Below are positions 395 to 60,948 of a stretch of 64,000 bases of DNA, in pieces; the stretch's first letter is position 1, and every line of letters begins with the position of its first letter. The notes beneath the pieces were generated by a model, which saw only the letters and a list, made by a program, of their open reading frames with translations, ran no database searches and was not told the origin of the DNA. The DNA is taken from contig NC_080425.1 in assembly GCF_029873635.1 (NCBI RefSeq), forward strand, positions 40,551,390-40,615,389. The letters run 5' to 3'. The DNA is from Malania oleifera (Eukaryota > Streptophyta > Magnoliopsida > Santalales > Ximeniaceae). A program made the position numbers and the translations under genes.

Positions 395-916
395 AAAGCA
401 AAAATGTCAATTGTCTATCTGTTTTAGGTCAGGCGCCTGAGCATTTAAAAAACTTGTTTTTTAAGACTTTTATTTCAAAAACTCTTTTTGCTCTTTGGGC
501 CTTTTAATTTATAACTTTGAAAAACATTTTTCAAGGTTTTAAAAATAGGTCTCTAGGTCTTTATTATTCTTAAAGAGTTTCAATGCATTCATATTGAACT
601 TTAAATTGAAGTACTTACATTATAGACTTCCATAAGACTCTAAAATGTTCAATTCTTGAAGTTTTCATGTATGTTCTTACTTTGAGTTCATCTTGTCTTG
701 AGCTTCAATATTCTTTAAGCTTTCATAATATTTGTCAAACTTTGATATGAGCTTTCTTTGAATAATTTGTTTGTAGGTGTACAATGTACTCTTGTGATTA
801 CTTGATCTTGAACTTTCTAATACTTGATTCCTAAAACATCACAACTTTAAAAACATCTTAAATTCTCCTGATTTGTTATCATCAAAATAAAAGTCGTAAG
901 CCTTGTTAGGCCAACA
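395..916 (-). mobile_element. Ty1/copia (SIRE-like) LTR fragment
   Basis: The right edge reads GGCCAACA; reversed, it begins TGTTGGCCTAACAAGG, matching the starts of the copia LTRs ending at 16595 and starting at 59181. The stretch shares the run of CTTGAGC/CTTTAAGC-type phrases typical of the first third of those LTRs and contains a GCGCCTGA palindrome near 430. It abuts gypsy LTR sequence at 917, so it probably interrupts that LTR, whose first 0.8 kb would lie left of the window. The left boundary is uncertain. Confidence 0.6.
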
Positions 917-2156
917 TTATGATATATCTCTCAAATCGTATGGCACGAACATGTTTGTTATTTTTGCATAATTAAACCTGATGGTTTTTATGGTATTATA
1001 CAGTGAAATATATGGTTTTATACTGATCTCCGAAATCGTTAAGAATAATGTGAATTTAAGATATGACGGTTTTTATATGGAGTTATGATATGACAGGTTC
1101 TCTACAGAATTATGAATATGACGGTTTTATACCGAGTTATGATATGATGATTTTATACCGAGATATAATATGATGGTTTTATACCGAGTTATGATATGAC
1201 GGGTTTTATACAGATTTATGAATATGATGATTTATACCAAATTTTGAAAATGAGATCATGTTACTATTTTTGCTAAGTAAATTATATATATGGTTTATAA
1301 TACCTAAGGGAATAGATCTAATGGAAGTTCGGTACCATAGCTAGTGAAAGTATTAGTGCAGCCACACTGTAGTGGAAGTGTAGGCCATAGACAATCGATT
1401 TGGCCTGAGTAGGCAGGGTCGTACCGCCTAGAGTTCGGACCAAGTAGCGCAAATCGTACTTCAGAGCATGTTATGTTGACTTAGCAGTGGTCGGCTGGCC
1501 AAATTGCTAGGTCAAGTCTTCGGACCGCACAACTCGATCATGGGGATTATTCATGATGTTATATGATGGCCCAATAAGGAAGGTTCTCTATTCATATACA
1601 TAATTTATGAAAAATGAGCTATAATGAGCCGAAAGTATGTTATCAAGGAAAATGTATGTATTTTCAATGATATAGGTGTGAGTATAGTTTTCAAATGCCT
1701 TTTCACTTAAAGTTATATTAATGAATATATTATACTCACATTAAAACTCATGTTGGCCACATAGTGATGATAATCTAATCTGTCTTACTGAGAGGTGTCT
1801 CACCCCAATAAATATCTTCATTTTTCAAGACCTATAGGAAATCGAGTCTAGCAAGCTACGGGGCTAGGATTAGATTTTATAGTTCGTTATAATGTCTGTG
1901 AGACACTGGGTTATTATGTTTTTGTTTATTTTGGGATGTAATATGAATACTTGGAGGTACATGTTTAATTATGGTGGTATTAGAACTCTGGTAAAGTTGT
2001 TTTAAGGTTTGATGTATTTCCACTGCATGTTTTTAAATGTCTTGTGGAATGGCGTACCCAAGATCCCCTGTTGGGTTTGGGTCGCTATAATTATGGTATC
2101 AGTGATACATGTATGAAGAATAGCACTTCGGGCCTCATTGGGTTTGGGGCGCTATA
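917..2156 (+). mobile_element. Partial Ty3/gypsy LTR (first of three)
   Basis: Collinear with the last two thirds of the LTRs at 2364-4391 and 8808-10695, from the ATTATGATATATC phrase to the terminal GGGGCGCTATA. It contains the ATGATATGACGGTTTTATACC minisatellite (about 1060-1245) and the conserved GGCCAGATTGCTAGGTC-like and TTGGCCACA-like blocks. Its first part is not in the window; copia LTR sequence stands where it should continue. Confidence 0.85.
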
Positions 2157-2363
2157 GTTGAATCACGCAATTGAGGAAGTTTATGGGAATTGGAAGAGGA
2201 AATACATTAGAGATACCCACATTTATTCAAAGAGGTCCAACGCTAGTCAGGTAAGTGTGATTGTTTAGGTAAGTACTTGGTTTGTGAATATAAATGGTTT
2301 AGAATACGTTGTGATAAATTTCGATTAGCAAATTTCGAGGATTAAATTTTTATGAGGGGAGGA
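2157..2363 (+). mobile_element. Gypsy internal tail between LTRs 1 and 2
   Basis: About 200 bases matching the end of the internal region of the same family at 8600-8807. It runs from an AATCACGCAATTGAGGAAG phrase to the purine tract GAGGGGAGGA directly before an LTR. It therefore represents the 3' end of another copy whose downstream LTR is the one at 2364, showing that three LTRs share two internal regions. Confidence 0.8.
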
Positions 2364-4391
2364 TGTAAGGACCAAGTTTGGTATAAGACCAAATTGTCAA
2401 CAGTTTAAGGAATCTCAAAAAAACCATCGACGGTTTAGTGGAGCAACGGTTTGATATAAGACCAAACCACCAACGGTTTCATAAATCTCACGAAAACTGT
2501 CGATGGTTTCAAACAACCGAGAGTTTTTTATATAAGAACACGATAAAACTAGTTTGGTAAGAGACCAAACCGTCAACGGTTTCATCAAAACCGTCAAAGG
2601 TTTCTTGCGAGCTGGGGGTCTATAAAAGGAAATCTATTATTTCTTTTCATTTTAAGTCTATAAAAGGAAATCTATTATTTCTTTTCATTTTAACTCTCTC
2701 TCTCTCTCTCTCTCTCTCTGGGCTTTCACTCTCTCACTCACCCTTTCCCTAAATTGAGTCTCTCACTCTCTGTCTAGCCCAAAGGCACTCCACACATGCT
2801 CTTCAATCATCTCTCTCTCCTCCCGGCTTGTTGGCCCTCGTTTCTCGGCCAGGTTTAAGAAGCTAGGGTTTCCTCCAAAGGTTGTAGGTAGATTTTTAAG
2901 AACAAGTAAGGGGATTAGATTATGCTAATTATTTTTGAAATATAAACCTATTAAACAAAAGTATATAGATACTAGAATATTATATATGATTTTCTAAATG
3001 AATCAGGCATATGAAATGAGGGTTCTGGTTATTATACATATTTGGGGAAAACTAAAGTGAGTGGGGTGGTCATCTTCTTTTCCTGAAAAACATATGCATT
3101 GAGTTAAACTAAACCCTAGAGATGATCATACTTTTATTTTCAACAAGGTATATTTTCTTAGGGAAGTTTGTTATATTATGATATATCACTCAAATCGTGT
3201 GGCATGAGAATGTTTATTATTTTTGTGTAATTAAACTTGATGGTTTTTATGGTATTATACAGTGAAAGATTTGGTTTTATATTGATCTCAGAAATTGTTA
3301 AGAATAATTTGGATTTAAGATATGACAATTTTTATACCGAGTTATGATATGATAGGTTCTATACAAAATTATGAATATAACGGTTTTATACCGAATTATG
3401 ATATGATGGTTTTATACCGAGATATGATATGACGGTTTTATATAAATTTATGAATATGACAGTTTATACCGAATTGAGAAAATGAGATTATGTTACTGTT
3501 TTTACTATGTAAATTATATATATGGTTTATGAATCCTGAGGGACTAGATATTATGGAAGCTCGGTACTATAGTTAGTGAAAGTATTAGTGTAGCTACACT
3601 GTAGTGGAAGTGTAGGCCATAGACAGTCGATTTGGCCTGAGTAGGATCGTACCCTCCTAGAGTCTGGACCAGGTAAAGGTGGGCAAATCATACTTCAGAG
3701 CATGTTATGTTGACTTGGCAGTGGTCGATCGGCCAGATTGCTAGGTCCAGTCTTCAGACCACACAATCCAATCATGGGGGTTATTTATAATGTTATATGA
3801 TGGCCCAATAAGGAATATTCTCTATTCATATATGTAATTTATGAAAAATGGGCTATATTGAGCCGAAAGTATGTTATAAAGGAAAATGTATGTATTTTCA
3901 ATGATGTAGGTGTAAGTACAGTTTTCAAATGCCTTTTCACTTAAAGTTAAATTAATGAATGTCTTATGCTCACATTAAAACTCATGTTGGCCACACACTG
4001 ATGATAATCTAATCCGTCTTACTAAGAGGTGTCTCACCCTAATAAATATCTTCATTTTTCAGGACCTACATGAAACCGAGTCTAGCGAGCTATGGGGCTG
4101 AGATTAGATTTTATAGTTCATTGTAATGTTTGTGAGATACTGGGTTATTATGTTTTTGTTTATTTTGGGATGTAATATGAATACTTGGAGGTACATGTGT
4201 AATTATGGTGGTATTATAACTCTGGTAAAGTTGTTTTAAGGTTTGATGTATTTCCGTTGCATGTTTTTAAATGTCTTGTCGAATGCCATACTCAGGATCC
4301 CCTGTTGGGTTTAGGTCGCTATAATTATGGTATTAGAGATATATGTATGAATAATAGTACTCCGGGCCCCCACCGGGTTCGGGGCGCTACA
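2364..4391 (+). mobile_element. Ty3/gypsy (Tekay/Del-like) LTR, middle of array
   Basis: About 2.0 kb, starting TGTAAGGACC after a polypurine tract and ending GGGGCGCTACA. An array of ACCGTCGACGGTTT-like near-palindromes (about 2395-2610) is followed by a TATA-like TCTATAAAAGG at about 2620, a (TC)n tract near 2695-2720, a minisatellite at about 3300-3475, and the conserved CTCATGTTGGCCACACACTG block. A primer-site-like TATTTCAGAGCC follows the 3' end. Many differences from the LTR at 8808, roughly one base in ten in the stretches I compared, suggest an old insertion. Confidence 0.9.
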
Positions 4392-4856
4392 TTTGTTATT
4401 TCAGAGCCTACGTTAATAGGTCCTATAGACTTTAGGGATGATTATTAACAGAGTATAGGTATGAATTTTGATGAGGGTAGGAATGGGTAGACTAGGTATT
4501 GTAAGGTTGATCGGGTATAGGATGCATAGCAAATACAACAAGAAAATTTGAATTTTGGACTTTTGTCGCCCAGTATGGAAGAAGAAATCCATCGACGACT
4601 TTCTGTGATTTTTCTGAAACAGTCGACGGTTTCAAAAAAGCCATGGAAAACCACCGACGATTTTTTTTTGGGGTAGCGAGACTAAAATGTATAGTTTGAA
4701 CTTGGACATTAAGTTGATTGTTTTGTGGGAAGAAGTCCCTAAAGGAAAGTCTATGTAATCTTGTATGGTGTGTTGAGTACTTTGTAAATTCCTAGATAGA
4801 TATTTGTGCCGATCGCAGCATTAGGATTTTAAATTTGTTGTTGTCATATCTTCAGA

Positions 4857-5830
4857 ATGGATCCTAGAGATAAGAACGTGGATGCTAGAGGAAGTATTAA
4901 CTTGGGGGCTTTCAATGAAGAAGGCAGTGGTTCTACTTCATTACTACGTAGGCTAAATCAACGGGCTATGATAGAAATTATGTGGAATTCTAGGGGACAG
5001 AACTGCCCACCCCTTGACAAGGGTTGCACTGTTGAGCAATTCACCTGCCTAAACCCCCCAATTTTTATAGGAAGAGTTGATCCCATCATTGTGGAGGACT
5101 GGATCTAGGAGATGGAGGAGTTATTGGCAAGTTTTCGCTGCGCAGACGAGCAGAAGGTTTTGTATGTTGTTTTTAAAATGACTAGGGAAGCCAAACATTG
5201 GTGGATTTTACTTGAAGAACAAAGGCCAGAACTAGAAACCCTGACATGGAACCGTTTTAAGGAAATCTTCTATGACCGATACTTTCCCTCTTCTACCAGA
5301 GATGCCAAGGCAGAGGAGTTTATCAATTTAACCTAGGGGAACTTGACCGTTTGACAATATGCGGCCAAGTTTATGGAGTTGTCTTGTTTTGCCCTAAATA
5401 TGGTTCTATATGAATCTAAGAAGGCTCGGAGATTTAAGAAAGGTTTGAGTCTGAGGATCTACGAGCAGGTGGTGGCATTTCAAGTCCAGAACTTCTCGGA
5501 GTTGGTGGATAGAGCAACAGTATTGGAGAAAGGCCTACAGAAAAGTACAGAGGTACTAAACTAGAGGAAGAGGCCCATGCCTCTAGGTTTTCAGGCTGGT
5601 ACAAGTCAGGGTTCATGGAAGGGAAATAGAGATAACGTGGGCCAGAGGTGAGTTGTGGGGAATCAATCCTATCAGGGTGAGTCATCATGCCCTCCTTGTT
5701 CTAGATGTTATAAGAGGCATTCGGGGGAATGTCGGGTTAGAGCAGTGATCTGTTATCGGTGTGGTAGACCCGACCATATTACACGAGAATGTCGTGGGCC
5801 ACCAATTAATGTATCCACTCTTAATCGATA
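4857..5830 (+). pseudogene. Gypsy gag remnant with zinc knuckle
   Basis: The N-terminal part starts MDPRDKNVDARG. Next come the retrotransposon gag core phrases [21 protein letters not shown] and [17 protein letters not shown], and near 5750-5800 a CCHC zinc knuckle, CYRCGRPDHITREC. In the family this protein packages element RNA into cytoplasmic particles. It sits directly downstream of the LTR and primer site at 2364-4410. Broken in several places. Confidence 0.85.
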
Positions 5831-5899
5831 CCAGGGAAACAATCAGGCACCTCGAGATGGCTATCAAAGGAACACCGCCCAGACACGTGTTTATTCTCT

Positions 5900-6275
5900 T
5901 ACCCCAGGAGAGGCAAAAAGTGCTGGTGACATGGTGACATGTAACATTTTTATATTTTTGAAGAAAGCAATAGTCTTATTTAATTCTAGAACAACTCATT
6001 CTTTTATATCTCTGGAGTATATTAAAATGTGTGGGGTAGGAACTTAACCATTAGATGATGACTTATTTGTGGTCACACCAACGGGAACCTTAGTGGTATA
6101 TAGAAAGGTACTCAAAAATTATTCAGTTAGTATTCAGGGTAGGATGCTACCTGTGAATTTAGTTGTATTTGATAGGCATGGATTTGATGTAATTCTAGGA
6201 ATGGACTGGCTAGCCTCCGACTATGCTAGTATAGACTATTACAAGAAAGAGGTAGTATTCAAACCTCCTAGAGAG
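5900..6275 (+). pseudogene. Gypsy aspartic protease remnant
   Basis: Phrases typical of the plant gypsy protease follow the zinc knuckle: an ATHSFIS-like segment (here TTHSFISLEYIK) and FDVILGMDWLASDYASIDYYKKEVVF, which in intact relatives ends the protease and leads into reverse transcriptase. The family enzyme cleaves the gag-pol polyprotein. This copy is broken. Confidence 0.8.
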
Positions 6276-8807: not shown

Positions 8808-10695
8808 TGTAAGGACCTAGTTTGGTATAAGACCAAACCTTCGACAATTTTAGAAATCTCATGGAAATCATTGACGGTTTCAAACAAATGAGAGTTTTTA
8901 TATAAGAACATAGGAAAAATGGTTTGGTAAGAGACCAAACCATCGACGATTTCATCAAACTGTCGACGGTTTCCTACAGGCCGGGGGCCTATAAAGGAAA
9001 CCTATTATTTCTTTTCATTTTAATTCTCTCTCTCTCTCTCTCTCTCTCTCGGGGCTTTAACTCTCTCTCTTTCACCCTTCCCTAAACCAAGTCTCTCACT
9101 CTCTTTCTAGCCCAAAGGCACTCCACACGTGCTTTCTAGTCCTCTCTCTCCTCCCGGCTTGTCAGACCTCATTTCTCGGCCATGTTTAGGAAGTTAGGGT
9201 TTCCTCCAAAAATTATAGGCAGATTTTCAAGAACAGGTAAGGGGATTAGATTATGTCAGTTATTTTTGAAATGTGAATCAATTGAACCAAAGTATATGGA
9301 TATAGAAATATTATATATGATTTTATGAATGAATCAGGCATAAGAAATAAGGGTTCTAGTTATTATACGTATCTGGGGAAAACTAAAGTGAGTGGGGTGA
9401 TCATCTCCTTTTCCTGAAAAACATATGTACTAAGTTAAACTAAGCTCTAGAGATGATCATACCTTTATTTTTAGTAAGGTATATTTTCTCAGGGTAGTTT
9501 GTTATATTATGATATATCACTTATATTGTGTGGTATGAGAATGTTTTTTATTTTTTGTATAATTAAACCTGATGGTTTTTGTGGTATTATACGGTGAAAG
9601 ATATGATTTTATATTGATCTCAGAAATTGTTAAGAATAATGTGGATTTAAGATATGACGGTTTTTATACCGAGTTATGAAATGACAATTTTATACCAAGA
9701 TATGATATGAAGATTTTATATCGAGTCATGATATGACAGGTTTTATACAGATTTATGAATGTGACAGTTTATACCAAATTGTGAAAATGAGATCATGTTA
9801 CTATTTTTGCTATGTAAATTATATATATGGTTTATGAACCTTGAGGGACTAGATCTTGTGGAAGCTCAGTACGATAGTTAGTGAAAGTATTAGTGCAGCC
9901 ACACTGTAGTGGAAGTGTATGCCATAGACAATCGATTTGGCTTGAGTAGGTTCGTACCCTTCTAGAGTTCAGACTAGGTAGAATTGGTCAAATCGTACTT
10001 TAGAGCATGTTATGTTGACCTAGTAGTGGTTGGCCAGCCAGATTGCTAGGTCTAGTCTTCAGATCGCATAATCCGATCATAGGGGTTATTCATGATGTTA
10101 TATGATGGCCCAATAAGGAAGGTTCTCTATTCATATACGTAATTTATGAAAATTGGGCTATATTGAGCCGAAAGTATGTTATCAAGGAAAATGTATGTAT
10201 TTTCAATGATATAGGTGCGAGTACAGTTTTCAAATGCCTTTTCACTTAAAGTTGAATTAATAAATGTCTTATGCTCACATTAAAACTCATGTTGGCCACA
10301 CACTGATGATAATCTAATCTGTCTTACTAAGAGGTGTCTCACCCTAATAAATATCTTCATTTTTTAGGACCTATAGGAAGCCGAGTCTAGAAAGCTACGG
10401 GGCTGGGATTAGATTTTATAGTTCATTGTAAGTGTTTGCGAGACACTGGGTTATTATGTTTTTGTTTATTTTGGGATGTAATATGAGTAGTTGGACTACA
10501 TGTGTAATTATGGTGGTATTAAAACTCTGGTAAAGTTCTTTTAAGGTTTGAAGTATTTTCGCTACATGTTTTTAAATGTATTGTGGAATGGCGTACCTAG
10601 GATCCCCTTTTGGGTTTGGGTCACTATAATTATGGTATCAAAGATATATGTATGGAGAATAGCACTCCGGGCCCTACCGGGTTCAGGGCGCTACA
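8808..10695 (+). mobile_element. Ty3/gypsy LTR, right end of array
   Basis: Starts TGTAAGGACC after the purine tract and ends GGGCGCTACA. It has the same parts as the LTR at 2364: near-palindromes at about 8820-8970, a TATA-like CCTATAAAGG near 8988, a (TC)n tract, a shorter minisatellite (about 9640-9775), and conserved 3' blocks. It is about 140 bases shorter than its partner, partly through fewer array units. Confidence 0.9.
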
Positions 10696-14230: not shown

Positions 14231-16595
14231 TGAAATTAGGAATAGCTTCCCAAGAGGGGGGGTGAATTGGCTTTTAAAAATTTCTTTTTAAAGTCCTTAA
14301 TTTCTTTTAATATTTAACCAATTCTTTAACTTGTTTATCTATTTTGCAATCAAACAAGAACTCGGTTTCTTTTAAACAATCAACAAGACAACTAATAAAA
14401 CATTCAATCTTCAACCACACAAATAATTAAACTAATCAAGCCAATCAACCACAATGCTCAAACTAACAACAAATTTGATTGGCAAATATAAATTCACTTC
14501 AGCATTATTAGATTGATGGAAGCATTCAAGATTAGTATATCTAACTTTTAGCTTTTATGTTATGTTCAGCCTTGTGGTAAATATGAGTTTGAACAAAGCC
14601 CTGTATATTTGAAATTTCTTCTTCAATATGATGTTCAATATAAAATCCAATTACTCTTTCCAAACTTCAGAATTCAAATAAACTCTTAAGTTAATTTATC
14701 TTTGGGATGTTTAGCCAAGTAACGTACTCCCGTATGGTTTCCGCAAAGAATGATTCAACCAACGTACTCCCTTTTGGTTTCCGCAACCCAAATCAAAATC
14801 AAACTTTAAGGTTTACTTGATTTCCAAATATACGTAGTTTATATAATTTTCAAATTTAAACCATCCACGCAATTTAAATATGTAATGAAAATAAAGAATA
14901 GGGAAAGAGAGAGTAAGACGGAGATTTTTACGAGGTTTGGCTTATACCCAGCCTACGTCCTCGCCTTTGGCAAACCACCAAAGGATTCACTAAACTTGTT
15001 CCGTTGACGGGTGGAACAAAATCTTTACAAGTGATACCCCACGCTCAAACACTCTTTCACTAGGCTAGAGCCTGCATCTACAAACGATGTCCCCTCGTTC
15101 GGTCACTCCTTTAGGCTAGAGCCTGCCTCTCTAAGCAATATCCCCTTGCTTAGCCAACGATCCAAACAATCTTTGGAACATCAAAGAACTACAAGAAACA
15201 AGATATAATATGCGTTCAAATATACTCTCACAATAGCAAGTTAGTACAAGTTCAACACTATATACTTCAATGTAAAATATCAATATGAAATACAATGAAG
15301 CTTAAGTGTAGAATTCACCAATATCCTTCTTAGAAGAGGATTAGCAGTAGGAATTTAGAGAAGGAAGGATTAGCACTTCAGAATATCTTAGGAAAAGAGA
15401 TTTGCAATGAGTGAACAAGAGAGCTTTGGAAGAACAAGAGTGCTTTCAGCTTCTAAAATAGATTTTTCAATTCATTGTTGAGTTTTGATTTGGAAAACCA
15501 TGTATTTATAGGCAATTAGACTTGTTTCCATGTTGCTAAAGTTTCCTTCGAGTGTTTCTCAAGCTTTTAGAAAGTTTGCCGCCCAAGCAAATAATATTTA
15601 AAAAATAAAATTTTTGAAATTTATGCCCGTTAATAGTGTTCAGATGACTGAAGTCTCGGGTTCAGTCATCTAAGGTGGTTCTGCCTCTAAAAAAAATTCA
15701 GCAAAAAATCTTCAGATGACTGAACTTAATCTTCAGTTGTCTGAAGTTATTCTTCAAACATCTGAAGTTACACTTCAATCGTCTGAAGTGGCTCTGTCTT
15801 CTATTCAGTCAGTTGAAGTTCCTCCCGTGAACAGTATTCAGTTGGCTGATAGCTGTGACCCCGCTTCAGTATTTTACTCATAACTTTTTCTATATAACTC
15901 CAAATTAGGTTTTGTTATTTTCAAAAGAAATCTAAGAGAAAATCCTACAACTTTCATGTTGAACACTTTTTAAAATAAGAAGTTTTAGATATAAAAAAAT
16001 GCACCTCAATGTGGATGTATAAAAACTAAGAACATTTGGAAAAACCTCCTTTTGGTGCTTTTTATTCCAAAAATAATTTTAACCTTTTTGAAATATATTT
16101 TGACCTTATGAAAATATTTTCCAGGTATTTTAAAAGGTATCTAGGTCTAAGAAGTTAACTTAAGAGTTTCATAATATTTCAAACGATATTTAAACATTAA
16201 AGTACTTACATAAAGACTTCTAAGACTTGACATTCTAAACACTCAAGTCTTCATGCTTGCTTTGACTCTTTCTTGGTCTTTAAGTTTTAATATTCTTTAG
16301 GCTTTTTCACTTTGCTTTTCTTTGGCTCTTTTGACTTTAACATTCCTTGGCTTTCAACAAATCATTCATGTTCTCATATTCTTCAAGTTTTAATATATCA
16401 TCTTTAAATCCATGCTTTGATCTTTAAATTCATGCTTTGACTCTTTTAAGCTTCATTTGATCCTTGTGAGCACTTTGACCTTGCTTTCTCATATATGAGC
16501 CCTGAGGCAACATTACTCACACAAATATGTTAAATTCCACTTGTTTGTTAGTATCAAAACAAGATAACAAGATTTTAAACCTTGTAAGGCCAACA
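14231..16595 (-). mobile_element. Copia (SIRE-like) solo LTR
   Basis: Reversed, it starts TGTTGGCCTTACAAGG and ends CCTAATTTCA, about 2.37 kb, with no coding region on either side. The flanking 5-mers are CATAT (14226-14230) and CGTAT (16596-16600), a target duplication with one change. On the minus strand the order is CTTCAGTTGTCTGAAG-like near-palindromes (15640-15850), a TATA-like CCTATAAATACATGG near 15500-15518, and the CCAATTCACCCCCCCCTCTTGGG block shared by the other copia LTRs here. An LTR alone implies loss of the interior by LTR-LTR recombination. Confidence 0.9.
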
Positions 16596-17062
16596 CGTAT
16601 ATATGTGTGTGTCCATATGGGTGTGTGTGTGTGTGTGGATGCATGCATGGATGTGCATATGCATGATGCATGATAATGCATACATGAATGGATGGATGCA
16701 TATGCATGTGCATGGATGGATGCATGCATGATTAAGAATGATGGCATGAATGCATGCAAGCATATACATATGCATGGATGCATGTTGATGTATGAATATG
16801 CATGTATGCATGATGATGCATGTACATGATGAATGATGAATGAAACATGGATGATGTATGCATGAAAGCATGTGCATGTGTGTGGATGTATGAATATGCA
16901 CGTATGCATGATGATGAATTTGCATGGTGAATGATGCATGTAAGTATGCATGTGGAAATGTATGTATGTATGCATGTAGATGCATGTGAGAGAACATGTG
17001 CTTGTGTTTGTATGCATGTTAACATGCATGAATGTATGTATATATAGGTGTGTATTTTTGGT

Positions 17063-17088
<26 letters not shown>
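16596..17088. repeat. TGCATG-rich minisatellite and (TG)n
   Basis: About 430 bases built from ATGCATG, GGATG and GATGAATG phrases without a fixed period, followed by a (TG)n run from about 17064. Histidine- and methionine-rich frames across it on the minus strand are repeat translation, not genes. It lies between two solo LTRs. Confidence 0.9.
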
Positions 17089-17094
<6 letters not shown>

Positions 17095-19650: not shown

Positions 19651-21772
19651 TGTTGACTTTTTGAGTCTGATCCCTATTTTGATGCTGACAAACTACCAGT
19701 ATCTTATGTGTGCTTTTGGTGTGTGAACAGGTTTTCATTTCAGCACGAACATAAGATACCGAAAAATGAATGCCAGCAAGAACATAAAGCTCACACTCTC
19801 TCGGCGTTTTCCATAAAGATTTAAGAATAAAGAAGATAAAGAAGAAATTTGTTTTTAATTTGTATCTTTGGTCTGTAATAGTGCATGTACCTGCATGATA
19901 TTTTTTAAATGCTCAAATGACCATAGAATGGCCATAGGGACTGAATGACCTTAGGGCACTCTTCGGTCAACCGAAGGTCGATCAATGCCAGATTTTTAGG
20001 GTTATTTCTCTAAATGAAAAAGGTTTAGAATGACCCTAGGACACTCACACATGCACATATATGTATGACTAAATGAATTGGGTGATTGCATGATCAAATA
20101 AAATTGAAATGCATTTAAGCTGCATGTTCGGTCGACTGTACTCTCTAGTACAATTCCTCCCGGTCGACCGAACCGGTGCCAGGTTAACAATTTGATCATA
20201 GCTGGGTCGACCAAACTTACCCAGTTCATTATCTCCCGGTCGACCGAACTCCCTAGGAGTCAACATATTGACCATTTGGTTGACTGTGCCCAAAATGCAT
20301 AACAACGCCCTAGTCGACCGAGTTCCCATGTGTGAGAACTCAACGGTCTGGTCGACCGAACTTGTTAGTTCAAAAGGTTTCTGATAGACCGAATCGCTCT
20401 AAATGAGAAAATCGCCCTTGGACCTCCATGTCTAGTCGACCGAACTTGTAGTTCAATTTATTCCTAGTCGACCGAACTCAGCGCAACTCGGTTAACCAAA
20501 CTTCCTTTGGTTGATCGGTGCTCTCGAGTTGGAATTTTTTAACTGCATTAAAACGTCATTAAAATTTAATTAATCTTTTCCAAAATATCGAGCGTGTCCC
20601 CAACGGTCAAATTTTCCAAAAATTCTATAAATACCCCCTCATAACTCCATATTAGTAACTTTGATTAACCCAAATTTTTCTCTAATCCATTGTTAATCAA
20701 AGTTCCCCCAAAATGTCTTTTATTGTTTAAATCATTCTTTTGGAGTCAAATTTTTACAAAAAACTCTCCAACTCTCTTCCACTCTTTCATTTCAAAATTA
20801 CTCTTGGAGAGAGTATATTTACTTTTGGGCATTTATTTTTACATGCTTACTCTCACTTATACTTTATTTTTGAAAATCTTTTTGAGCATATAGCTTTGGT
20901 TTCTCCTTATTATTTTCATGATAAATATTCTTGGGAGAATTTATTTATTGCACAAATATTTTATTGAGTTTAAATTCCTAGATTCTCCAAATGTTCTTTA
21001 TTTGCAAAAATATTTATAGGAAAACATAATACTCATTTTTCATACATATTTTATTTGTGCATTGATTTTTTAGATAAGCACCCTTTACTCTATTGAGCTT
21101 AAATCATATCATAAGAGAGTGCATACATTTTTATGAGCTTAATGTGTACATCCATGCTTGTATTTAGAAGCTTTTTCATATGTACAAAAATGTTTCTTTT
21201 TGTACTAGTTGGGTTCAGCTCATTAATTGAATCGGGGAGTCTCAGCCCCGTAAATGAGACAGTTCGGTTCAACCCGAAATTGATCTAGGGAGTCTCAGCT
21301 CCGTAAGTGAGACAAGTTTGGCTCAGCCTAGTAATTGAGCTAGGGTTTTCCTCGCCCCATAAGGAGAAGAAGTAAAAGACTTCTACTCCGCCTAGTTAAG
21401 TGAGCAGGTATAATGGAATCCTTGGGGGTATGCCTAAGGTAGGGACGTAGGCAGTATTGACCGAACCTCATTAACAAATCTGTGTATCATTCTCTCTCTA
21501 TCTTATTTAAATTTCTGCACTTAAATTTCAGCATGTGTATGCTTATTCATGTTTTGTTATAACCATCTTGCATGCACACAGAACTAATTTAAATGAGATA
21601 TGCAGCACACGTGTATGTATGCACACACTGATAACTTAATCGTTTTACGTACACATTTTCAATATTGAATGGGATATGAACTGTGGTGAATTGCCATAAT
21701 TGTTTAAATTAGCGAAAAATATTTTTAAAACCCAATTCACCCCCCCCTCTTGGGATCACAGAAATTCCAACA
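19651..21772 (+). mobile_element. Copia (SIRE-like) solo LTR
   Basis: Starts TGTTGACTTTTTGAGTCTG and ends GAAATTCCAACA, about 2.12 kb. A perfect 5-bp target duplication CATAT lies at 19646-19650 and 21773-21777. An array of GGTCGACCGAAC near-palindromes, about a dozen with variants, spans 19965-20525. A TATA-like TCTATAAATACCCCC follows near 20623, and the CACCCCCCCCTCTTGGGATC block lies near the end. No coding sequence remains. Confidence 0.95.
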
Positions 21773-42285: not shown

Positions 42286-42300
42286 GGCTCTGATACCAAA
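42286..42300 (-). other. Primer binding site (initiator Met tRNA type)
   Basis: Directly inside LTR B, the minus strand reads TTTGGTATCAGAGCC, the usual plant retrotransposon primer site complementary to the 3' end of initiator methionine tRNA. Confidence 0.9.
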
Positions 42301-47940: not shown

Positions 47941-50900
47941 TGTGACAACCTGCTTAATTTCCACATTTTTTTTATACAATAAATACAATATCACAGAACT
48001 CGGGAGATCATAATCCACCTAAACCCATGGGTACTAGGGATACATCAGAAATACATCACGGAAGCCTATGCAGTAGGAAACATAAATCACAAATACCTCA
48101 TTATACCGTACATCACAATACGAGAGTTACTACAATCACTGTATATATATGTACCCAATACACAACCCAAAAGATATCTAGGGCCATCCCACAAAATACA
48201 TCCGACCCTATCAAAACACTTACCCTTCTAGGAGGGTAGACCAACCATACTAGATCAGCGGGGCTTTACCCGCTATCCTATTAGGGGCTCCTGAAATATT
48301 TATAAAATTTTGGGGTGAGACACTTGTAACGACCTGCTTAATAAACTGGGGGTTTTTTTTTTATATATACTATGATATTCTACATACTCTGATACCATAC
48401 TGAGGTAAACCAAATCATAAGCCTAAGCAGCGAGAAGCAGAAATTAAATAAACATAACCACATATAATTATATACAATACAATACCAGAGTGCTATCATG
48501 TTTTCCAAAATATACACATATCACTATTCCCCAAAATACCCTCAACTATGCTGGGATATACAAAAATCCTCCACAATACTCACTTCACCGACAGGGCACT
48601 ACTGAAGCCCCTCTATCTGCGAGCCTGATCTACTCGCCTACCTGGATCACCTGAAAAATGATTCAACATTGGGATAAGCCAATGCTTAGTAAGACGAAAT
48701 ATGCTATTACTAGTGTGTGGCAAATGAGTTACAATATTATGAAAATATGTTTCTAAATAATCATGTATAACTGAATATGTAAATACAGTACAAGTAATAA
48801 AATTCACCTCATTTCCATGTTACTTAACATAACAGTATTGTAAATTACTATTCAAAATACTTCTATCATACATAAGTATGTTCCCAGTTTCTGTAAATCT
48901 GTACATACATAATAGCAACTGAAAACTTTCCCTGTGGATAACTGTGTGTCATGATTTAACCCTTCATGACAGGATTGTGTAGCTCGTAGGCGGGATTTAC
49001 CCTGGCTGGCCAACCAGGAATAAATCACTATACTCCATCGGTCTGATATGCCCACCTCAACCCATATCTGATGGGGAGTCTGTCCACGTCAAGGGCCTAG
49101 GTGATCGACCTACTACCACGTATTATCTAAATAGGTGATTGCACTCGTAACATAACATAATATCTGTAGCAACGGTACCGCGCTCTATAACTGTATAGTC
49201 CAACAGGGTCTGATACTATATAATATATCTCTATATACAACTATCTGATTTACCATGATTATGAAATAACCGTAATAACCATGATACTGAATAAACTGTA
49301 ACTGTAATTCATACATCATAATATTGAGAACTATATAATCGTAACACTGAAACTCCATAATCATAATACTGAAATTCGTATAATCATAGTACTGAAATTC
49401 ATAAAATCATGGTACTGAAATTCGTAAACATATCTATGTACTATATTCATATTCTCAAGCCACACTATACTTTAATACGTAATTTTCATAATTTAATAAA
49501 TAGTATAACATTTTAAAAATACCTAGCATAGCATATTTCCCTTACCTGACTACTAAAAAGCCCCTATGGTATACTGGCCTAACACCCGCAGGGCCTCCTA
49601 CACAACACCTTGAAAACAACATTTTCTAGAACAGAGTATCAGTATTTTTTCGCCTACATCATTTCCTATAGCTGTCACAAGACCAAAAATGGACTAAAAG
49701 GCCTTACCCTGAATTTGAGATGAAATCCAACTCAATCCCACCGACGATCCGTCCTAGCAAACTTGAAGAGAACTCCGCCAGGAACATCATGGTGGCTTCA
49801 GATCGTCAATCTGACGACTGGAGGGGCCAAAATCGAAGAAAGAAGTGAGAGAGGGACGTAGAGAGAGAGAGAGGAGAGAGAGAGTGGCATTGAAAATGGA
49901 TAAAAATACGATTTTTAGCTATTTATAGGGCCAGATTCGTCGACGAGACATGTCACCTCGTCGATGAGTCCTTTAGTAAATTCGTTGACGAATCCCTGTA
50001 TTCATCGATGAAATTCAGAGTAGCCTAAATTCATCTCTCGGTATTTTCTCGTAGACGAAACCCTGTATTCGTCGATGAAATCCTAAAGACCTTCATCGAC
50101 GAAACCCTGTATTCGTCGACAAATTCCCTTATGCACTCATCAATGAACCCTTGTATTCGTCGACAAATTTTTGCAATTTCTTGAAATTATTATATTCTCT
50201 AAAATGCAATGTCGTCAACGAAGTTTACTACCTCCTTCTGTTCCTGTTTCCATTTTCCTTCCTCTTTATTATTAAAATACTATTATTCTTCAGGTCACTA
50301 CATTCTCCCTTCCTTATAAAATTTCGTACTCGAAATTTACCATCTGTCTATATTCCTTTCTATCATCCCATAGGGCAAAATGGTCTACTTATTTTATTAC
50401 CTACCCTTACTTATGGTAGAGGAATACCGTAGTTACATACTATGTTCTGGGAAATTACACATATAAAAGTAAAAACTATATACTAACCAAAATCAATACA
50501 TGTACCTGTAAAAGAAACCTATCTACCTATTATACTTTACCTGGGTATCTCTATTCCTCTTGGAACAACTATGGATATCTCTGTCTGATCTACTCCTCGA
50601 GTTCCCAAGAAGCTTCCTCTATGGTGTGATTCCTCTACAGAACTTTAACTAACTATATTTCTTTAGTGTGTAAAGTCTGAACCTTTCTGTCCAAAATTTG
50701 TACTGGTACTTCTTCATATGCCAATGAATCCTTAAGCTCTATCTCTGCATAGCTAATGATGTGGGATGGGTTTGAGATGTATTTCCTTAACATGGCAACA
50801 TGAAACACGTCATGAATTCGAGCCAAAGCTGGCAGCAACGCTAGCCTATAAGCAACTGACCCTATTTTCTTGTCGACGAAACCCTATATTTGTCGACGAA

Positions 50901-52977
50901 ATCCTAAAGACCTTCGTCTACAAAACCCTGTATTCGTCGACGAATTCCCTTATGCACTCGTCGACGAACCCCTGTATTCGTCGACAAATTTTGGCAATTT
51001 CTTGAAATTATTATATTCTCCAAAATGCAATGTCGTCGACGAAGTCTACTGCCTCCTTCTGTTCCTGTTTCCATTTTCCTGCCTCTTTATTATTAAAATA
51101 CTATTATTCTTCGGGTCACTACAACACCACTCAGTAAGGGAAATAAACTAATACTAGTGTGTGGCAACATGAGTATTCCGTGTTGTACATATATTGTATA
51201 GAAACATATTTAACAACTATTATGTCATATCTGGAAAAACATATATATCATCATAACATGACAAAACATACTGCATTTTCATAATCATATTTCATCTCAT
51301 AAAATAATAATACAAAAACATTCCTGGTAGGTTAGCTGGCTGTTATCATGTATTACCCCTACATGACTGGGTTGTGTGGCCCAAAGGCGGGACTTGACAA
51401 TGGTTGGCCGACCACTGCCAAGTCAAAAGTACAGTTTGTAAGTCTGATGGGTTTACCAGACCTGGTCTGTACACCAAGGGCGCTCACACACTTCTTAAAA
51501 ACCACATCGACCATCCAATCTCACACCACTCCGTACAGCGGCGTTAACACAAATATCATGATCATGATGACCATGGACACATAGCAACAGTACCGTGCAA
51601 GTGCTAGCCTAGACCAAGCCAACCAAGTTCTGATATCATATAGCATATACTGAAACTGTGATACATGGATATCATATCATTAATTATCAAATCAATCATA
51701 TCATTTTTCATATATAAATATATTATGAAAATCATTGGCCCGTACGCCGGTATTACACATTTTATCATAACTCGGCCCATACGCCGGCAAATTATAACAC
51801 AGCCCGTATGCTGGCAAATCACATCCATAGCTCGGCCCGTACGCCGACAAATCATATAATAGCACAGCCTGTACGCTGACAAATCACATCCGTAACTCGG
51901 CCCGTACGCCATCAAATCATATCATAGCACGACTTGAACGCCGAAAAAATATATCCGTAACTCAGCCCATACGCTTGCAAATCATACACATAGCACGACC
52001 CGTACGCCAACAAAACATATAAAAATCTCGGTCCGTGCGCCGGTTTTTCCATTATAAAAATCCATATCATTAATACATTCCCAGAAAACAGTATTTCATT
52101 ATCATTTCTACTCATGCCACACCAAATAGGTTTTTCATATATCCAACATGCCATCATTTGCAATAGTATTTTCCAAATATAAATCATATATATGAACACA
52201 TTTACTTTCCTGAAATCAAATGCTACATATACATACATTTTCTTAAAAAAAAACTAACTTAATTTATCACCTTACCTGATTCCTGAAAAGCTCCTAAATC
52301 AAACACTCCTGCACTGGCAGGGTTCCCCGTTCAACACCCTGAAAACAACATTCCCCAGAACTAAAGTTTAGTATTTCTATGCATATATCACTTCCTACAA
52401 CTGTTAATTAACCAAATACTGAGTAGAAAGTCTTACCCTGGATTTGGGATGGTTTCCAACTCAGTTCCACCGACGATCTGCTCCGACAGACTTGTAGAGA
52501 ACTTTCCCAAGAGCATCGCGGTGGCTTCACATCGTCGAACCAGTGGAAATCCGGCTCGAAATCGAATAGAGAAGGAGGAGGAATTGAAGGGTAAGAGAGA
52601 GGGAAGTTATGCGCTGAAAAAATTACTGAAAATCACGTTTAATCCCTATTTATACTACGAGATTCGTCGACGAGCCACGTCACCTCGTTGACGAGTCCTA
52701 TAGAAAGTTCGTCGACAAACTCCAACCCTCGTCGACAATTTTGAGGTTTTCAAAAATCCTCTCTCGGTATCTTCTCGTTGACGAATCCTATCCTCATCGG
52801 CGAGCTCCTATTATACCTTCGTCGACGAGTCCCCTGTATTCATCGACGAGGAGCTGAAAAATTCCTCAGAATTATGCTTTCAAAAAATGCAACGTCGTCG
52901 ACTGCCTCCTTCTGTTTCTGGTTCCCATTTCCCTTTCTTTTTATTATTTAAATACCATTATTCTTTGGATCGTTACA
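47941..52977 (-). mobile_element. Gypsy (Tekay-like) solo LTR, interrupted
   Basis: The plus-strand edges are TGTGACAACC and GGATCGTTACA. The 5-bp target duplication GATTA at 47936-47940 and 52978-52982 is perfect. The LTR itself (47941-48324 plus 51124-52977) is about 2.2 kb. On the minus strand: GTCGACGA-like near-palindromes (52660-52905), a TATA-like AGTATAAATAGGG near 52650, an array of GCCCGTACGCCGACAAATCA units (about 51735-52050) and the GCCACACACTAGTATTAG block near 51150. A second gypsy element is inserted at 48325. Confidence 0.9.
48325..51123 (-). mobile_element. Shortened gypsy element inserted in the solo LTR
   Basis: The plus-strand edges are TGTAACGACC and GGGTCACTACA, flanked by ACACT and ACACC, a near-perfect target duplication. 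Parts on the minus strand are a piece of LTR (51123-50862), a short internal tail (50861-50302) and a whole LTR (50301-48325). The tail encodes the end of pol (HDVFHVAMLRKYISNPSHII) and a polypurine tract ATAAGGAAGGGAGAA before the LTR. It is a fossil that lacks most of gag-pol. The whole LTR has the near-palindrome array TTCGTCGACGAA (49925-50220), a TATA-like CCCTATAAATAGC near 49918 and a TACTGAAATTC array at 49250-49440. Confidence 0.9.
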
Positions 52978-56464: not shown

Positions 56465-56471
<7 letters not shown>

Positions 56472-56737: not shown

Positions 56738-58808
56738 TGTTTTTGTAAATTTTGACTCTACGAGTCCAATCCTGTTTTGATAATGACAAATTACTTGGTA
56801 TTTGATCTGTGCATTGAGATTGTGAACAGGAACAATATATAGTATGCACGGAAGGATTACAAGTCATGGACTCCATGAAGATTAAAACATACATATCTTG
56901 GCACAATCTATGGAACTGAAATAGTAGAAAAATGAAGATACAAGCGGCGAGTTCAAGATCGTCATGGGAATGGGTACTTAGAACTTATGTATTCACATAC
57001 TTCATATAATTTAATTTGAGGCTCAACATATATCCTAGAATGACCTTAGGACTCATGCATCTCATGAACATCATTAGGGAATATTTATGGACTTAAATAT
57101 ATTTTAAAATCATTTTTATAAAAGGGCAAAGAAAGAGAGCAAAACAGATTTTTGAAACTCAAAAGAAAAAATTCAGGAAAGGTTCAGTTCAGAAGATTGA
57201 ACTTTCAAGTTCAGTTGTCTGAAGATTTAATTTCATAAGACTGAAGTTAAGATCAGTCGTCTGAAGAATTTCTTCAGAAGACTGAAGATTAAGTTCAGTC
57301 GCCTAAAGAACTAATGGTGAAACACAAAACCTGGTAGAAATACCTTAGAAGACTGAACTCAGACTTCAGTCGTCTGAACCCAACACTTCAAAAGATCGAA
57401 CCCCAACTTCAGTCGTCTGACCCTGTGTACAGGTTGATTTTTTCAAAACTCTCAGGAACTTTAGTCATCTAGGCCCTAACCTTCAGTCGTCTGAATCTGC
57501 GGGAAAGTTTAAAATTTTGATTTTTAATAAGAGAACACGCGAACTATTTTTTGATCCAACGGTTAAAATTGATTCTAAGGGTAAGGTACCTATATATTCA
57601 ACATCTAAACCCTAGTGCCCCATCCTTTTGGAATAGAATTGAGAGACTTGAACATATTGCTATATGATTGTCTGCACTTCGACTTATACTCGTCAAGCTT
57701 TGGCAAATCAACTCAAAAAAATGAAGGGATTTCATATACACATCTTGATTTCTATTTGGTATTAAGGTTTGGTAAATTCATTTTTTATTTTCAAGAGTTT
57801 CTTATCTCATCATTTATTATTTAATATTATTAGAGAGATTGATCTTGAGTGTTCATATACATATAGAGATTGTTTTGACAAGATCACTACTTGAGAAAGG
57901 TTTTGCCATTGGTTAAATAGTTCTGATTCAAGAGTGTATTTAGTTAAAGACTTAATATTTTTGATACTTCAAAACCATTGATTAAATATCCTTAGAAGTT
58001 CATAACTATATATATTATTGAGGGATATTTTCTGAAAAATCTTATATTAGGTTTTGATATTTGGTAATCACATCTCATATATATATATATATATATATAT
58101 ATTAATTTGCATATTACAAAGATCATATTGTGGTTGAAAATTTGGGAGAAAGCTTACTTATTTAGATCTTTATAATATTCAAGACAAATTTTTTCACAAG
58201 ATCATATTTGATATTTGTGCATCTTGTCTCAAAGCTATTACTCATAAAAATATTTTGGAAGATTTGATAAAAGAGAAATTTGGTGAAGCATATTCATTCA
58301 TTAACAATTGTATCGTTACATACATATTGAGCTTCAAGTTTCATCATATGGATATGTGTTAGGAATTTCAATTGTACTCACTAGCTTTGTTAGAAGCGAA
58401 TCTTGAGTTGTTTTGCAGATTTGAAATTGTAATTGTAATCACAGTTCGGATTGTGAAACAGGTGAGGAGGAAGTTGTGCCTCTTGTAAGCAACGGATGTA
58501 AGGGAAGCTCCTTCCCAATTTAAGGAGCAGGGATTTTAGTGGAATCCTTGAGTGGGTTGCTCAAGGCGAGGACTTAGGCAGAGTTGGCTGAACCTTGTAA
58601 AAAATGTGTTTGCTTTCTCTCTTCATTTACTCCTTTTAGTTTCCGCAATGCATTTCACTACTTACATTGCACGTGTGTTTGTGGAATAACCTCACACGAC
58701 CTTGATAAGTAATTTGTTAAATATAGAAATAGGAACTAAGTGGTAAATAAGTTTAAAAAATTTTTAAATTACCCAATTCACCCCCCTCTTGGGATTACAC
58801 CTAAATCA
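56738..58808 (+). mobile_element. Copia (SIRE-like) solo LTR
   Basis: From TGTTTTTGTAAATTTTGACTC to ACACCTAAATCA, about 2.07 kb. The flanking 5-mers are AGACT (56733-56737) and ACACT (58809-58813), a target duplication with one change; the left edge could shift by a few bases. CTTCAGTCGTCTGAAG near-palindromes span 57185-57505, a TATA-like CCTATATATTC lies near 57588, and the CACCCCCCTCTTGGGATTAC block is near 58780. The motif is almost the same as in the LTR at 14231, so the two belong to related subfamilies. No coding part. Confidence 0.85.
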
Positions 58809-59180
58809 ACACTAAATATGCATAGATCTTTAGAAACAATATGATATAGCACAGGAAACAAACATCTTGCATTAATTGAATACAAATTTAGAATACAAAT
58901 TCATTAACCTTAAACATTAAAAGACATACGATCCAACTCAATTCTCATTTTTTAATGGATCCATCTCACTTCTCATCAAAACAAGAATTATGGAACCTCT
59001 TCATATGATCACGTGGGACTATTAGATGTGCATTTATGAAACCAGTGTGAGCAAGCTTTAACACTTTTTCAATTCCCAGCTGTTTCTACTTGATGTGATA
59101 CCCTTAACCAATTTAAACGTATAAGTCAAAATGAACAGACATGCAATTGTTCTCCTCCCTTATGCAATTAAATTAAGTTC
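58809..59180. other. Gene-free spacer
   Basis: AT-rich; no gene, repeat or RNA recognised. Confidence 0.5.
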
Positions 59181-60948
59181 TATTGGTCTAACAAGACTTA
59201 CGAATCTTATTTTTATGATAACAAATCAAGGGAAATTAACATGTTTTGGATGAAGTAATGATGTTTCAGGAATCAAGCATTAAAGTCAAGATCAAGAGTG
59301 TATTGATATCCTACAAGTGATCAAAAGAGAGCTCAACAATACAAGTTTGTCAAAACTTAAGAAAGCTTAATGACTTCTGAAGCTCAAAGTCAAGATGGAC
59401 TCAAAGCAAGATATACATGAAAACTTCACACCTAAAGAGTTTAAGTCTTAAGGAAAGTCTTATGTAAGTACTTCAATTTAAAATCAATACGGATGCTTTG
59501 AAGCTCTTTAGGAATGATTATGGGCTTAGAGACCTATTTTTAAAACCTTGGGAAACATATTTTTCAAATTTCAAATCAAAGATTCCAAGATTAATAGCTA
59601 AAATATTTTTCGAAAACAAAGTCTTAAAAACTGTTAAAATGCATGCTCATGCGATTGACTAGGTTTCGTCAGGCGACTAACAAATTATATGGTTTTTAAG
59701 AAAGGCAAACAAAACTATGACAAACGTCTCAAAAAACACTCTCAAACGACTGTCAGAACATTGTTAGGGAACTGACAGGGCACTGACTTTTGAAATATGA
59801 TGAGTTTTAATGTGACAGACAACTGAGACTTTTAGTCAGGTGACTAACGTTCATAAATTTTCAAATAAAGCAGCATTGAAAAGTCTTAAAAAATGTTTGC
59901 TTGGGTTCCAAACTTTGTAAATACTTAGGAAATACTCCAAGTAAACTTGGGCAACAAGGAATTACTTTTAGAACTCTATAAATACATGGAAGACCAAAGG
60001 ATTTTTATAACAACAACTACAAGCAATCAAACAAGCAAAGTCTCTAATTCTCAAAGCTTTCTTGCTCACTCACTCTTGCTAAAGTTATATTCAAAATTCC
60101 TACTGATACAACCACTCGATTCTTGTGCTCTTACTAAGTTTCATTCAATTTAAAGAAGAACTCAGTGATTAATTTCTTGAACTTCAAATTCATTCTTTAT
60201 TGATATTTAATTTGAAGTATATTAGTGCTCTAACTTGTACTAATCAGCTCTATTGTGAGAGTGTCTTTATACACAAGAATTTGTTCTTATTTCTTTCTGT
60301 TTTTGATGGTTCAGGTTGTTGAATCGTTGTATTGAGCGTGAGGTATCTCTTGGAGAGGAAGACTCTATCCTATTGAAAGAGTGTTGTAAAGGTTTGCGCA
60401 ACCCACAAAGGAGTGGTATAATAGAATCCTTAGGTGTGTTGCCTAAGGTGATGGCATAGGCAGATATAGCCGAACCTCGTAAAAACTATGTGTCATTCTA
60501 TTCCCTACTCTCTTTAAATTTTAGCACTTATAAACTGTGTGGTTGTGTACTTAATTTTCTGAATATTAATTTACTTTTGGAAATCGCAGAAACCATAAGG
60601 GAGTACGTTGATTAATCAATATTATTGTGGAAACCTCAAGGGAGTACGTTGATTGATTAATACCAAAGCTTATTAATATATTAGTTGGTTACATACTTAA
60701 GATTAAGATACTTATTTAATATTAACATTTGAATTTTTTGAATTTTCTATTTTATTTCATATTGCAATATCAAACTTACTTCATTGATTGGGCTGAGTGA
60801 TTGTGAAGTTGATTGTCGAGATTACAAATTAACTCAAATTGAAAAAAAGGTTATTACTTGACTAAAAGAACTTGTATAACAAGAATTTAAAAAAGAAAAT
60901 TTTAAAAACCCAATTCACCCCCCTCTTGGGAGTACACCTAACTTTTCA
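59181..60948 (+). mobile_element. 5' LTR of the copia element
   Basis: From TATTGGTCTAACAAG (other family members start TGTTGGCCTTACAAG) to CACCTAACTTTTCA, 1768 bases. CAGGCGACTGAC-like near-palindromes span about 59650-59850, and a TATA-like CTCTATAAATACATGG lies near 59975. It has the GGGAGTACGTTGATTGATTA repeats and the CACCCCCCTCTTGGGAGTAC block of the other copia LTRs. Confidence 0.9.

Follow-up and report, generated by a model that had tools for sequence, protein, structure and literature searches.

Arrays of near-palindromes stand upstream of TATA-like boxes in the long terminal repeats (LTRs) of Copia-type and Ty3/gypsy retrotransposons found in a 64,000-nucleotide stretch of DNA (C9:40551390-40615389, hereafter the window), which belongs to a 1.494-Gb genome comprising 510 contigs and, judged from its sequence content, probably comes from a plant. 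The window contains many LTR elements, nested and broken, and the arrays that an initial annotation had reported in LTR orientation upstream of such boxes are present in all ten of its listed stretches (Table 1). We propose, with a probability of roughly two in three, that these arrays form the dyad-site upstream activating region of the LTR promoter in U3 (the unique 3′ region). They would be rows of dyad-symmetric sites for a dimeric host DNA-binding factor, each with two half-sites separated by a 4-bp gap. In Copia elements (Sirevirus-type), the sites lie near whole helical turns apart and in one helical phase from the TATA box, and the bound dimers would align on one face of the DNA and jointly reach the TATA-bound machinery. 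The main gypsy family has its last site 13-14 or 23-26 bp from the TATA box, with sites paired at 20-21 bp.

Abundance and structure of the arrays

The six motifs listed in the initial annotation exceed expectation in the window about 4- to 70-fold, when counts are compared with their average over 10 first-order Markov sequences: AAACCGTCGACGGTTT occurs 11 times versus 0.2 (at most 3 mismatches), TTCGTCGACGAA 29 versus 0.4 (at most 2), GTTCGGTCGACCGAAC 14 versus 0.5 and CTTCAGTCGTCTGAAG 23 versus 3.2 (both at most 4), TTCGGGTGCCCGAA 8 versus 1.9 and GTCAGGCGACTGAC 12 versus 1.7 (both at most 3). The matches lie mostly where they had been reported, and certain motifs cross-match the arrays of others. 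A motif-free scan with simple repeats masked searched for palindromes with 12 specified bases, a 0-4 bp gap and at most 2 mismatches, in copies at most 300 bp apart, with mirror, direct and complement symmetries as respective controls. At five or more copies, palindromic arrays outnumber the controls both in the window (10 versus 2, 2 and 1) and in a 200-kb sample of 20 stretches of 10 kb, taken one per 7 Mb along C1 (23 versus 5, 7 and 4). At the looser threshold of at least four copies the contrast in the window is weak (12 versus 11, 8 and 4), and the sample gives 28 versus 14, 23 and 7. Two weak arrays (8820 and 59650) escaped the scan, and three of its 12 window clusters (16594, 25407 and 42673) are not of the LTR-promoter type. 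The 23 sample arrays comprise 14 of the TTCGTCGACGAA type (two of them decayed), five of Copia type (for example TTCAGG..CCTGAA or TCAGTCGACTGA) and four of neither.

Genome-wide, with the reversed word as control, TTCGTCGACGAA is found 37,861 times (each palindrome being counted once) versus 67, TTCGGTCGACCGAA 3,249 versus 1, TTCAGTCGTCTGAA (both strands) 2,372 versus 2 and AACCGTCGACGGTT 2,630 versus 4. Copia-type sites number 22,419 with CGG-CCG arms, 31,681 with CAG-CTG arms and 26,179 with mixed arms, versus 1,471, 1,557 and 1,775, respectively, for the reversed words. Viral contigs scanned for the gypsy-type array gave no match.

The view that sequence changes completely between families proved wrong, because the families share a half-site grammar: TTC(A/G)G or TTCG half-sites with a 4-bp gap recur across them. 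With gaps of 0-12 bp allowed in the window plus 200 kb, k=4 accounts for 22 of the 33 TTCRG-Nk-CYGAA pairs and for 18 of the 35 TTCG-Nk-CGAA pairs; in TTCAG-N4-CTGAA, the central four bases vary widely. Copies within one array agree at 0.71-0.77 up to about 7 bp from the centre, a value partly built in by the choice of array copies through motif match, and at 0.29-0.35 beyond, while the 10-copy AAACCG set has an agreement of 0.48 at 8-14 bp from the centre. Symmetric sites outnumber mixed ones by 61 to 10 at the loci studied, a tally that is biased because many loci were fetched with symmetric words; the window and random sample alone give 17 to 5. Among 299 gypsy copies, complementary pairs stand close to expectation at positions 4:9 (182 observed, 171 expected), 5:8 (266, 264), 2:11 (255, 251) and 6:7 (200, 210), with an excess at 1:12 (143, 113) and 3:10 (203, 184).

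The CpG observed/expected ratio is 0.8-2.3 in nine of 11 window arrays versus 0.17-0.69 in their flanks. CpG is scarce in the two CTTCAG arrays (ratios of 0.34 and 0.49), the CAG-CTG class being without the CpG of the CGG-CCG class; the other three window Copia arrays have ratios of 1.07, 0.97 and 0.80. Decay of the gypsy copies occurs mostly at CpG positions, a pattern suggestive of methylation.

Spacing and position relative to the TATA box

Centres of Copia palindromes are mostly 21/22, 32/33, 42/43, 50-52, 72-74 or 84 bp apart, that is, near multiples of 10.5 bp. For 82 spacings from 13 arrays the mean cosine at 10.5 bp is 0.695, the best of periods 6-20, and 0.564 for spacings above 25 bp only (n=46). 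When one array is taken from each of five similarity clusters, the values are 0.794 (n=27) and 0.756 above 25 bp (n=20), each with a simulated p of 5e-5, the lowest value that 20,000 uniform draws allow. Twenty further Copia loci, picked from listed pairs so that each has at least one pair at 16-46 bp, give 0.713 (n=115) and 0.496 above 25 bp (n=43), 10.5 bp being the best of 13 periods between 8 and 14. Exact CGGTCGACCG pairs, searched genome-wide at 16-46 bp, fall at 21 bp (1), 24 bp (4), 30-34 bp (28) and 40-43 bp (17) among the first 50 matches listed, and nowhere else; this set overlaps with the 20 loci, because ten of them come from the CGGTCGACCG pair list. In the gypsy TTCGTCGACGAA arrays, spacings of 20-21 bp alternate with 24-25 bp, making a unit of 45-46 bp. 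The single AAACCG array tested has five spacings, compatible with the helical rule and too few to judge by. Helical phasing as a universal rule was rejected, as the main gypsy family fails it.

A distance of roughly 10-130 bases to the TATA box had been claimed, and in all ten window arrays with such a box it lies 14-136 bp past the last palindrome centre (Table 1), with one proviso: the last counted copy of the 19965-20525 array (centre 20493) is decayed, being found at up to 5 mismatches in 16; counted from the nearest copy that is clearer (20437), the box is 189 bp away. In the five window Copia arrays the box is always downstream, at 103-136 bp. For the eleventh array, in a truncated LTR piece (50868-51044), no TATA box was found.

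Genome-wide direction to the TATA box is established for the gypsy motif only. TTCGTCGACGAA is followed by TATAAATA at 5-35 bp in 2,297 places (1,154+1,143), versus 21 (15+6) in the opposite order. Among 100 matches listed, the spacer is 8 bp in 8, 18-21 bp in 45 (35 of them at 19 bp), 28-33 bp in 42 and of other lengths in 5, the sequence context of the 19-bp class being unlike that of the 8-bp class. A strict TATA box faces away from 22 of 28 gypsy-type arrays (eight of which were fetched via the motif itself and none via TATA) and toward 4, compared with 15% in random intervals; in 19 of the 22 it stands 13-14 or 23-26 bp past the last centre, and in 3 elsewhere. Note also that a GTGACGTG-type word, which we take to be bZIP-like, lies between the two TATA-nearest gypsy palindromes at 18982-18990, 49948-49956 (where it is altered) and 52675-52683, and is seen in many genome-wide TTCGTCGACGAA/TATAAATA matches.

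In Copia elements, CGGTCGACCG is followed by TATAAATA at 110-140 bp in 680 places genome-wide, versus 2 for the backward pattern. Within one LTR context, 24 distances from last centre to TATA box (search range 115-145 bp; of 100 matches listed, 60 were hand-picked because they carry a block resembling CTCTCGGGTT or TTCTCGGGAAAG, and the 40 listed rows left out mostly have a different upstream context) fall at 122-125 bp (14), 133-136 bp (8), 116 bp (1) and 138 bp (1), with none at 126-132 bp. Pooled over 26 arrays, the distances are 82, 100-103, 121, 131-136, 154-156 and 175 bp, mostly in one 10.5-bp phase (R=0.74 at 10.5 bp, the best among 11 periods); the six distance classes, grouped by hand, give R 0.85 with a simulated p of 0.007. 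The words GGTCAA/TTGACC, presumably W-box-like, recur between Copia sites.

A number of results weigh against activating dyad sites in helical register. Mixed-arm sites reach 0.66 of the independent-arm expectation, and thus the arms are coupled only in part; for each of the 11 window arrays, moreover, the RNA folds better than its dinucleotide-shuffled versions (z -1.3 to -7.7). The 50 listed CGGTCGACCG pairs give R 0.78 at 9 bp versus 0.71 at 10.5 bp, spacings of 24 and 40 bp are off the helical phase, and the 24 Copia TATA distances score equally at 10.5, 11 and 12 bp (R 0.77, 0.78 and 0.77); in these two sets whole turns are favoured by zero phase or pooled data only. The 47 gypsy TTCGTCGACGAA spacings above 25 bp have a cosine of -0.185 (p 0.93), showing no helical phase beyond the 21-bp pair. 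In 13 Copia arrays a strict TATA scan barely separates the directions (away in 10, toward in 8). The pooled TATA set comprises 26 of 33 arrays, the 7 without a usable TATA box having been dropped; competing TATA-like sites were chosen by TATAAATA match or family direction, and reading by eye supplied two of the window values, including the 133 measured from a decayed last copy. Finally, p values for spacing come from uniform nulls, and LTR families share descent.

The strongest alternative, which we nevertheless consider unlikely, is that the palindromes act as hairpins: transcribed as U3 of the 3′ LTR, they would fold and feed small RNAs, as a silencing hot spot or as RNA structures retained for their own sake. 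TTCAG-N4-CTGAA would give a 5-6 bp stem with a tetraloop, and palindrome clusters of maize Sireviruses are enriched in small RNAs (Bousios 2016, as told in the available text of PMC10760457); the folding scores above are not specific to this explanation, because any palindrome array folds. Hairpins do not predict the near whole-turn spacing and one-turn TATA steps, and the arms are near-independent at most pairs in the 299 gypsy copies. Strict symmetry through base pairing is likewise unsupported, mixed arms being common; at 0.66 of independence, symmetry is therefore favoured and not strict, as expected for the two half-sites of one dimer. The near whole-turn Copia spacing and single TATA phase favour sites for dimeric proteins rather than hairpins: a promoter in which dimers are aligned with one another needs a fixed direction, distances close to whole turns and the 4-bp gap between half-sites. 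Dimeric factor sites, one of the options named in the initial annotation, accordingly fit best (the limitation of copy identity to the palindrome also agrees with them), with hairpin potential present besides. Its broader notion, that selection acts on form at a set position in the promoter, is supported; its interpretation as a whole stands in part. Activation sites may also feed silencing, and both explanations may apply together; a conflict between activation and silencing has been proposed for Copia elements (PMC10760457, in its available text).

Less probable still is that the arrays are sites for silencing or anti-silencing proteins, following the logic of VANC, where family-specific arrays would set methylation and their turnover would be driven by conflict. 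The elevated CpG ratios (with the two CTTCAG exceptions) fit this idea, and the targets of VANC are short arrays that are particular to a family and lie in non-coding DNA of transposable elements (available text of PMC5735166). However, VANC arrays as described there are same-orientation tandem repeats, unlike the dyads in mostly unique spacers seen here; among 36 different open reading frames, the sole DNA-binding match in Pfam is a sub-threshold B3 in a frame unlinked to an array-bearing element, and the lock of the arrays to TATA better suits transcription. That the arrays are functionless by-products, neutral minisatellites that grew through tandem duplication close to the LTR start, is hardly credible: some units do repeat (44 bp at 50054-50169 and 50872-50989; 21-22 bp at 15707-15789 and 57179-57299), but the identity profile does not support such an origin, since copy identity stopping about 7 bp from the dyad centre means that tandem duplication does not explain most arrays, no single repeat unit would account for the Copia spacings near 3, 4, 5, 7 and 8 turns, and palindromic symmetry in the 200-kb sample exceeds all three controls at five or more copies.

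A wider proposal, which we offer tentatively and would rather doubt than assert, is that two unrelated LTR superfamilies have built the same type of promoter, with TATA-locked, 4-bp-gap dyads read by one family of dimeric host factors, and with Copia insertions and deletions surviving mainly as whole turns. With about 80,000 Copia-type words in addition to the gypsy-type ones, the elements would constitute a genome-wide sink for the factor and ready-made response elements for nearby genes. Should one host factor read both element types, its identity would explain when these elements are activated and would put a name to a factor that has tens of thousands of sites in the genome.

Elements carrying the arrays

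Table 1. Array-bearing LTRs and associated features of the window (positions are those of the window; distances are from the last palindrome centre to the TATA-like box, and single positions given for a box mark its 5′ end)
Feature	Position	Strand	Distance (bp)	Remarks
Ty3/gypsy LTR, first of pair	2364..4391	+		AAACCGTCGACGGTTT-type array and TATA; similar to 8808-10695; start TGTAAGGACC, end ...CGCTACA
Six near-palindromes, AAACCGTCGACGGTTT type	2391..2603	+		Spacings 30, 43, 30, 73, 21
TATA-like box TATAAAAG	2621..2628	+	25.5	Duplicated at 2659 by 38-bp repeat
Gypsy gag (Retrotrans_gag), zinc knuckle, RVP_2 pieces	5109..6275	+		Between LTRs 2364-4391 and 8808-10695
Gypsy LTR, second of pair	8808..10695	+		
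AAACCGTCGACGGTTT-type array	8835..8972	+	25.5	In second LTR of gypsy pair; TATA-like box at 8990
Copia-type array CTTCAG-N4-CTGAAG	15638..15851	-	135	TATA 5′ end 15510(-)
Gypsy-type array TTCGTCGACGAA	18970..19200	-	14	LTR start 19280(-) TGTAGCGACC; TATA-like TATAAGTA at 18961(-)
Copia-type array GTTCGGTCGACCGAAC	20126..20500	+	133	Last copy decayed; TATA at 20626
Gypsy-type array TTCGTCGACGAA	49935..50223	-	14	LTR start 50302(-); TATA at 49927(-)
Gypsy-type array TTCGTCGACGAA	50868..51044	-		Truncated LTR piece, start 51123(-); TATA not found
Gypsy-type array [TC]TCGTCGACGA[AG]	52662..52850	-	14	LTR start 52977(-); TATA at 52654(-)
Copia-type array TTCGG-N4-CCGAA	54989..55353	-	134	TATA-like box at 54861(-)
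Copia-type array TTCAG-N4-CTGAA	57187..57496	+	103	TATA-like TATATATT at 57591
Copia-type array GTCAG-N4-CTGAC	59646..59848	+	136	Weak, decayed; TATA at 59977
LTR/primer-binding-site junction CAATTGGTATCAAAGA	60947..60962	+		2 mismatches to published Sirevirus 16-mer
Copia pieces	60984..63762	+		DUF4219 (below cut-off), Retrotran_gag_2, Pol_BBD, gag_pre-integrs, rve (below cut-off)

The assignment to two superfamilies has coding support in part: gypsy pieces lie between the LTRs at 2364-4391 and 8808-10695, Copia gag-to-integrase pieces follow the 59650 LTR, and the other window LTRs are placed by similarity only. Ty3/gypsy gag and protease stand between array-bearing LTRs for the AAACCG family in the window, whose AAACCGTCGACGGTTT arrays occupy LTRs roughly 2 kb long. 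For the TTCGTCGACGAA family there is one such locus (L026), where an LTR pair 89% identical flanks a gag match below the cut-off, accompanied by a zinc knuckle akin to the one in the window gypsy element. LTRs with TTCGTCGACGAA arrays start like TGTA(G/A)..ACC. The LTR ends and the style of gag may point to a Tekay/Del-type chromovirus; the gypsy arrays are not filed under that lineage here. On the Copia side, the 59650 element has the gene order Retrotran_gag_2, Pol_BBD, gag_pre-integrs and rve (the last sub-threshold), the window ending before the reverse transcriptase. By similarity, the 15640 and 57185 LTRs are tied to the 59650 LTR or to sample locus L022, which has a Copia gag, and the 54985 LTR resembles that of L012, which has Copia pol upstream; the 19965 LTR, putatively Copia, is similar only to L021 5295.

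The Sirevirus junction CA/ATTGG followed by TATCAGAGC matches with 2 of 16 mismatches at 60947 and with 1 mismatch at 42287, beside a gypsy element, a level at which shuffles give 0.7 matches on average. For the Sirevirus polypurine tract (AGGGGGAG with AT/TG), AGGGGGAGATTG at up to 2 mismatches occurs 4 times versus 4.2 expected in the window, which stops before the 3′ end of the 59650 element.

Three copies of one gypsy LTR occur in tandem order (916-2160, 2364-4391 and 8808-10695), the first truncated; together with a copy of the internal end (2161-2363), it looks like an LTR-LTR recombinant or a nested remnant. A 38-bp direct duplication (2618-2697, 97% match) doubles the TATA-like box of the 2364-4391 LTR, and one box was found in its partner (8990). 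Two further AAACCG-type palindromes lie between LTR and gag (4617-4663). Another LTR-like repeat (42298-43103), beside a gypsy gag, contains palindromes of ATGACATGTCAT type within a tandem repeat of 42 bp (42673-42804), a length equal to four helical turns. A 33/65-bp tandem repeat (GCCCGTACGCCGRCAAAT..., 51768-52042) lies downstream of the promoter at 52660, as read in the orientation of the LTR. Degenerate ATGCAT-rich arrays at 16594-17148 and at L015 9488-9992 are palindromic by composition, and none was seen at a promoter. The minus strand also holds a 400-amino-acid open frame (31959-33161) with three repeats of about 125 amino acids and the sub-cut-off B3 match mentioned above (E 1e-4), as well as RVT_1 and zf-RVT pieces of a broken non-LTR element (12421-13702).

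Comparison with known systems

The initial annotation could not say whether the layout had been described. For Sirevirus (Copia) LTRs it was published in 2010, and our literature search turned up no Ty3/gypsy counterpart. According to the available text of Bousios 2010 (PMC2829016), Sirevirus "RM boxes" are high-copy palindromes that have a CGG-CCG core, form CpG islands and stand upstream of a conserved TATA box; the RM given for a Vitis element, CGGTCGACCG, is also the core of the motif at 19965-20525. Because of this description, the Copia half of our finding is known in kind: palindromes upstream of TATA in Copia LTRs occur in both cases. The cluster lies here at the distances given above, and on average 37 bp from the CpG island in the 2010 text, which is a different measure. 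The 2010 set has at least eight RM copies per element, and the window Copia LTRs, counted at loose thresholds with decayed copies, have 7-10, so that two of the five are one short of eight. The CGG-CCG core is present in the 19965 and 54985 types and absent in the CTTCAG (15640, 57185) and GTCAG (59650) types, which for this reason are filed as like RM boxes and not as RM boxes. Such CAG-N4-CTG and GTCAG-type motifs differ from the RM signature, to which the 2010 text itself names one exception, Tnd-1; also unlike that text are the gypsy elements with palindromes of their own and the near whole-turn spacing, "helical" and "spacing" appearing only in the reference list of its available part.

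The 2016 study of maize Sireviruses, as summarised in the available text of PMC10760457, likewise describes a palindrome-rich cis-region with folding potential, and unlike our analysis stresses small RNAs and secondary structure. In ONSEN (PMC3907296), symmetric nTTCnnGAAn sites in a plant LTR promoter are bound by a multimeric host factor; the site and its 2-bp gap differ from ours, and the available text describes no long array or TATA rule. VANC targets of VANDAL transposons (available text of PMC5735166) are, as here, family-specific arrays of short motifs in non-coding transposable-element DNA, but tandem, same-orientation, non-palindromic and bound by an element-encoded protein. Spread by tandem repeats in the VANC/VANDAL style was not seen in our arrays, where identity mostly ends at the dyad edges. 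The U3 region of Tnt1 is variable. Its BII boxes are LTR-promoter boxes that bind defence-induced factors, with no palindrome array described in the available text (PMC3316501).

A literature search whose reach left out most subscription journals found no gypsy counterparts, CAG-CTG class or helical rule, and a search with the motif words gave no plant-LTR paper by title among the matches listed. The near whole-turn Copia palindrome spacing and the single TATA phase appear to be new here; this spacing rule would turn the 2010 motif into a testable promoter model, predicting which insertions abolish activity and which leave it intact. Like the spacing rule, the gypsy arrays appear to be new, and with them the layout is not restricted to Copia elements.

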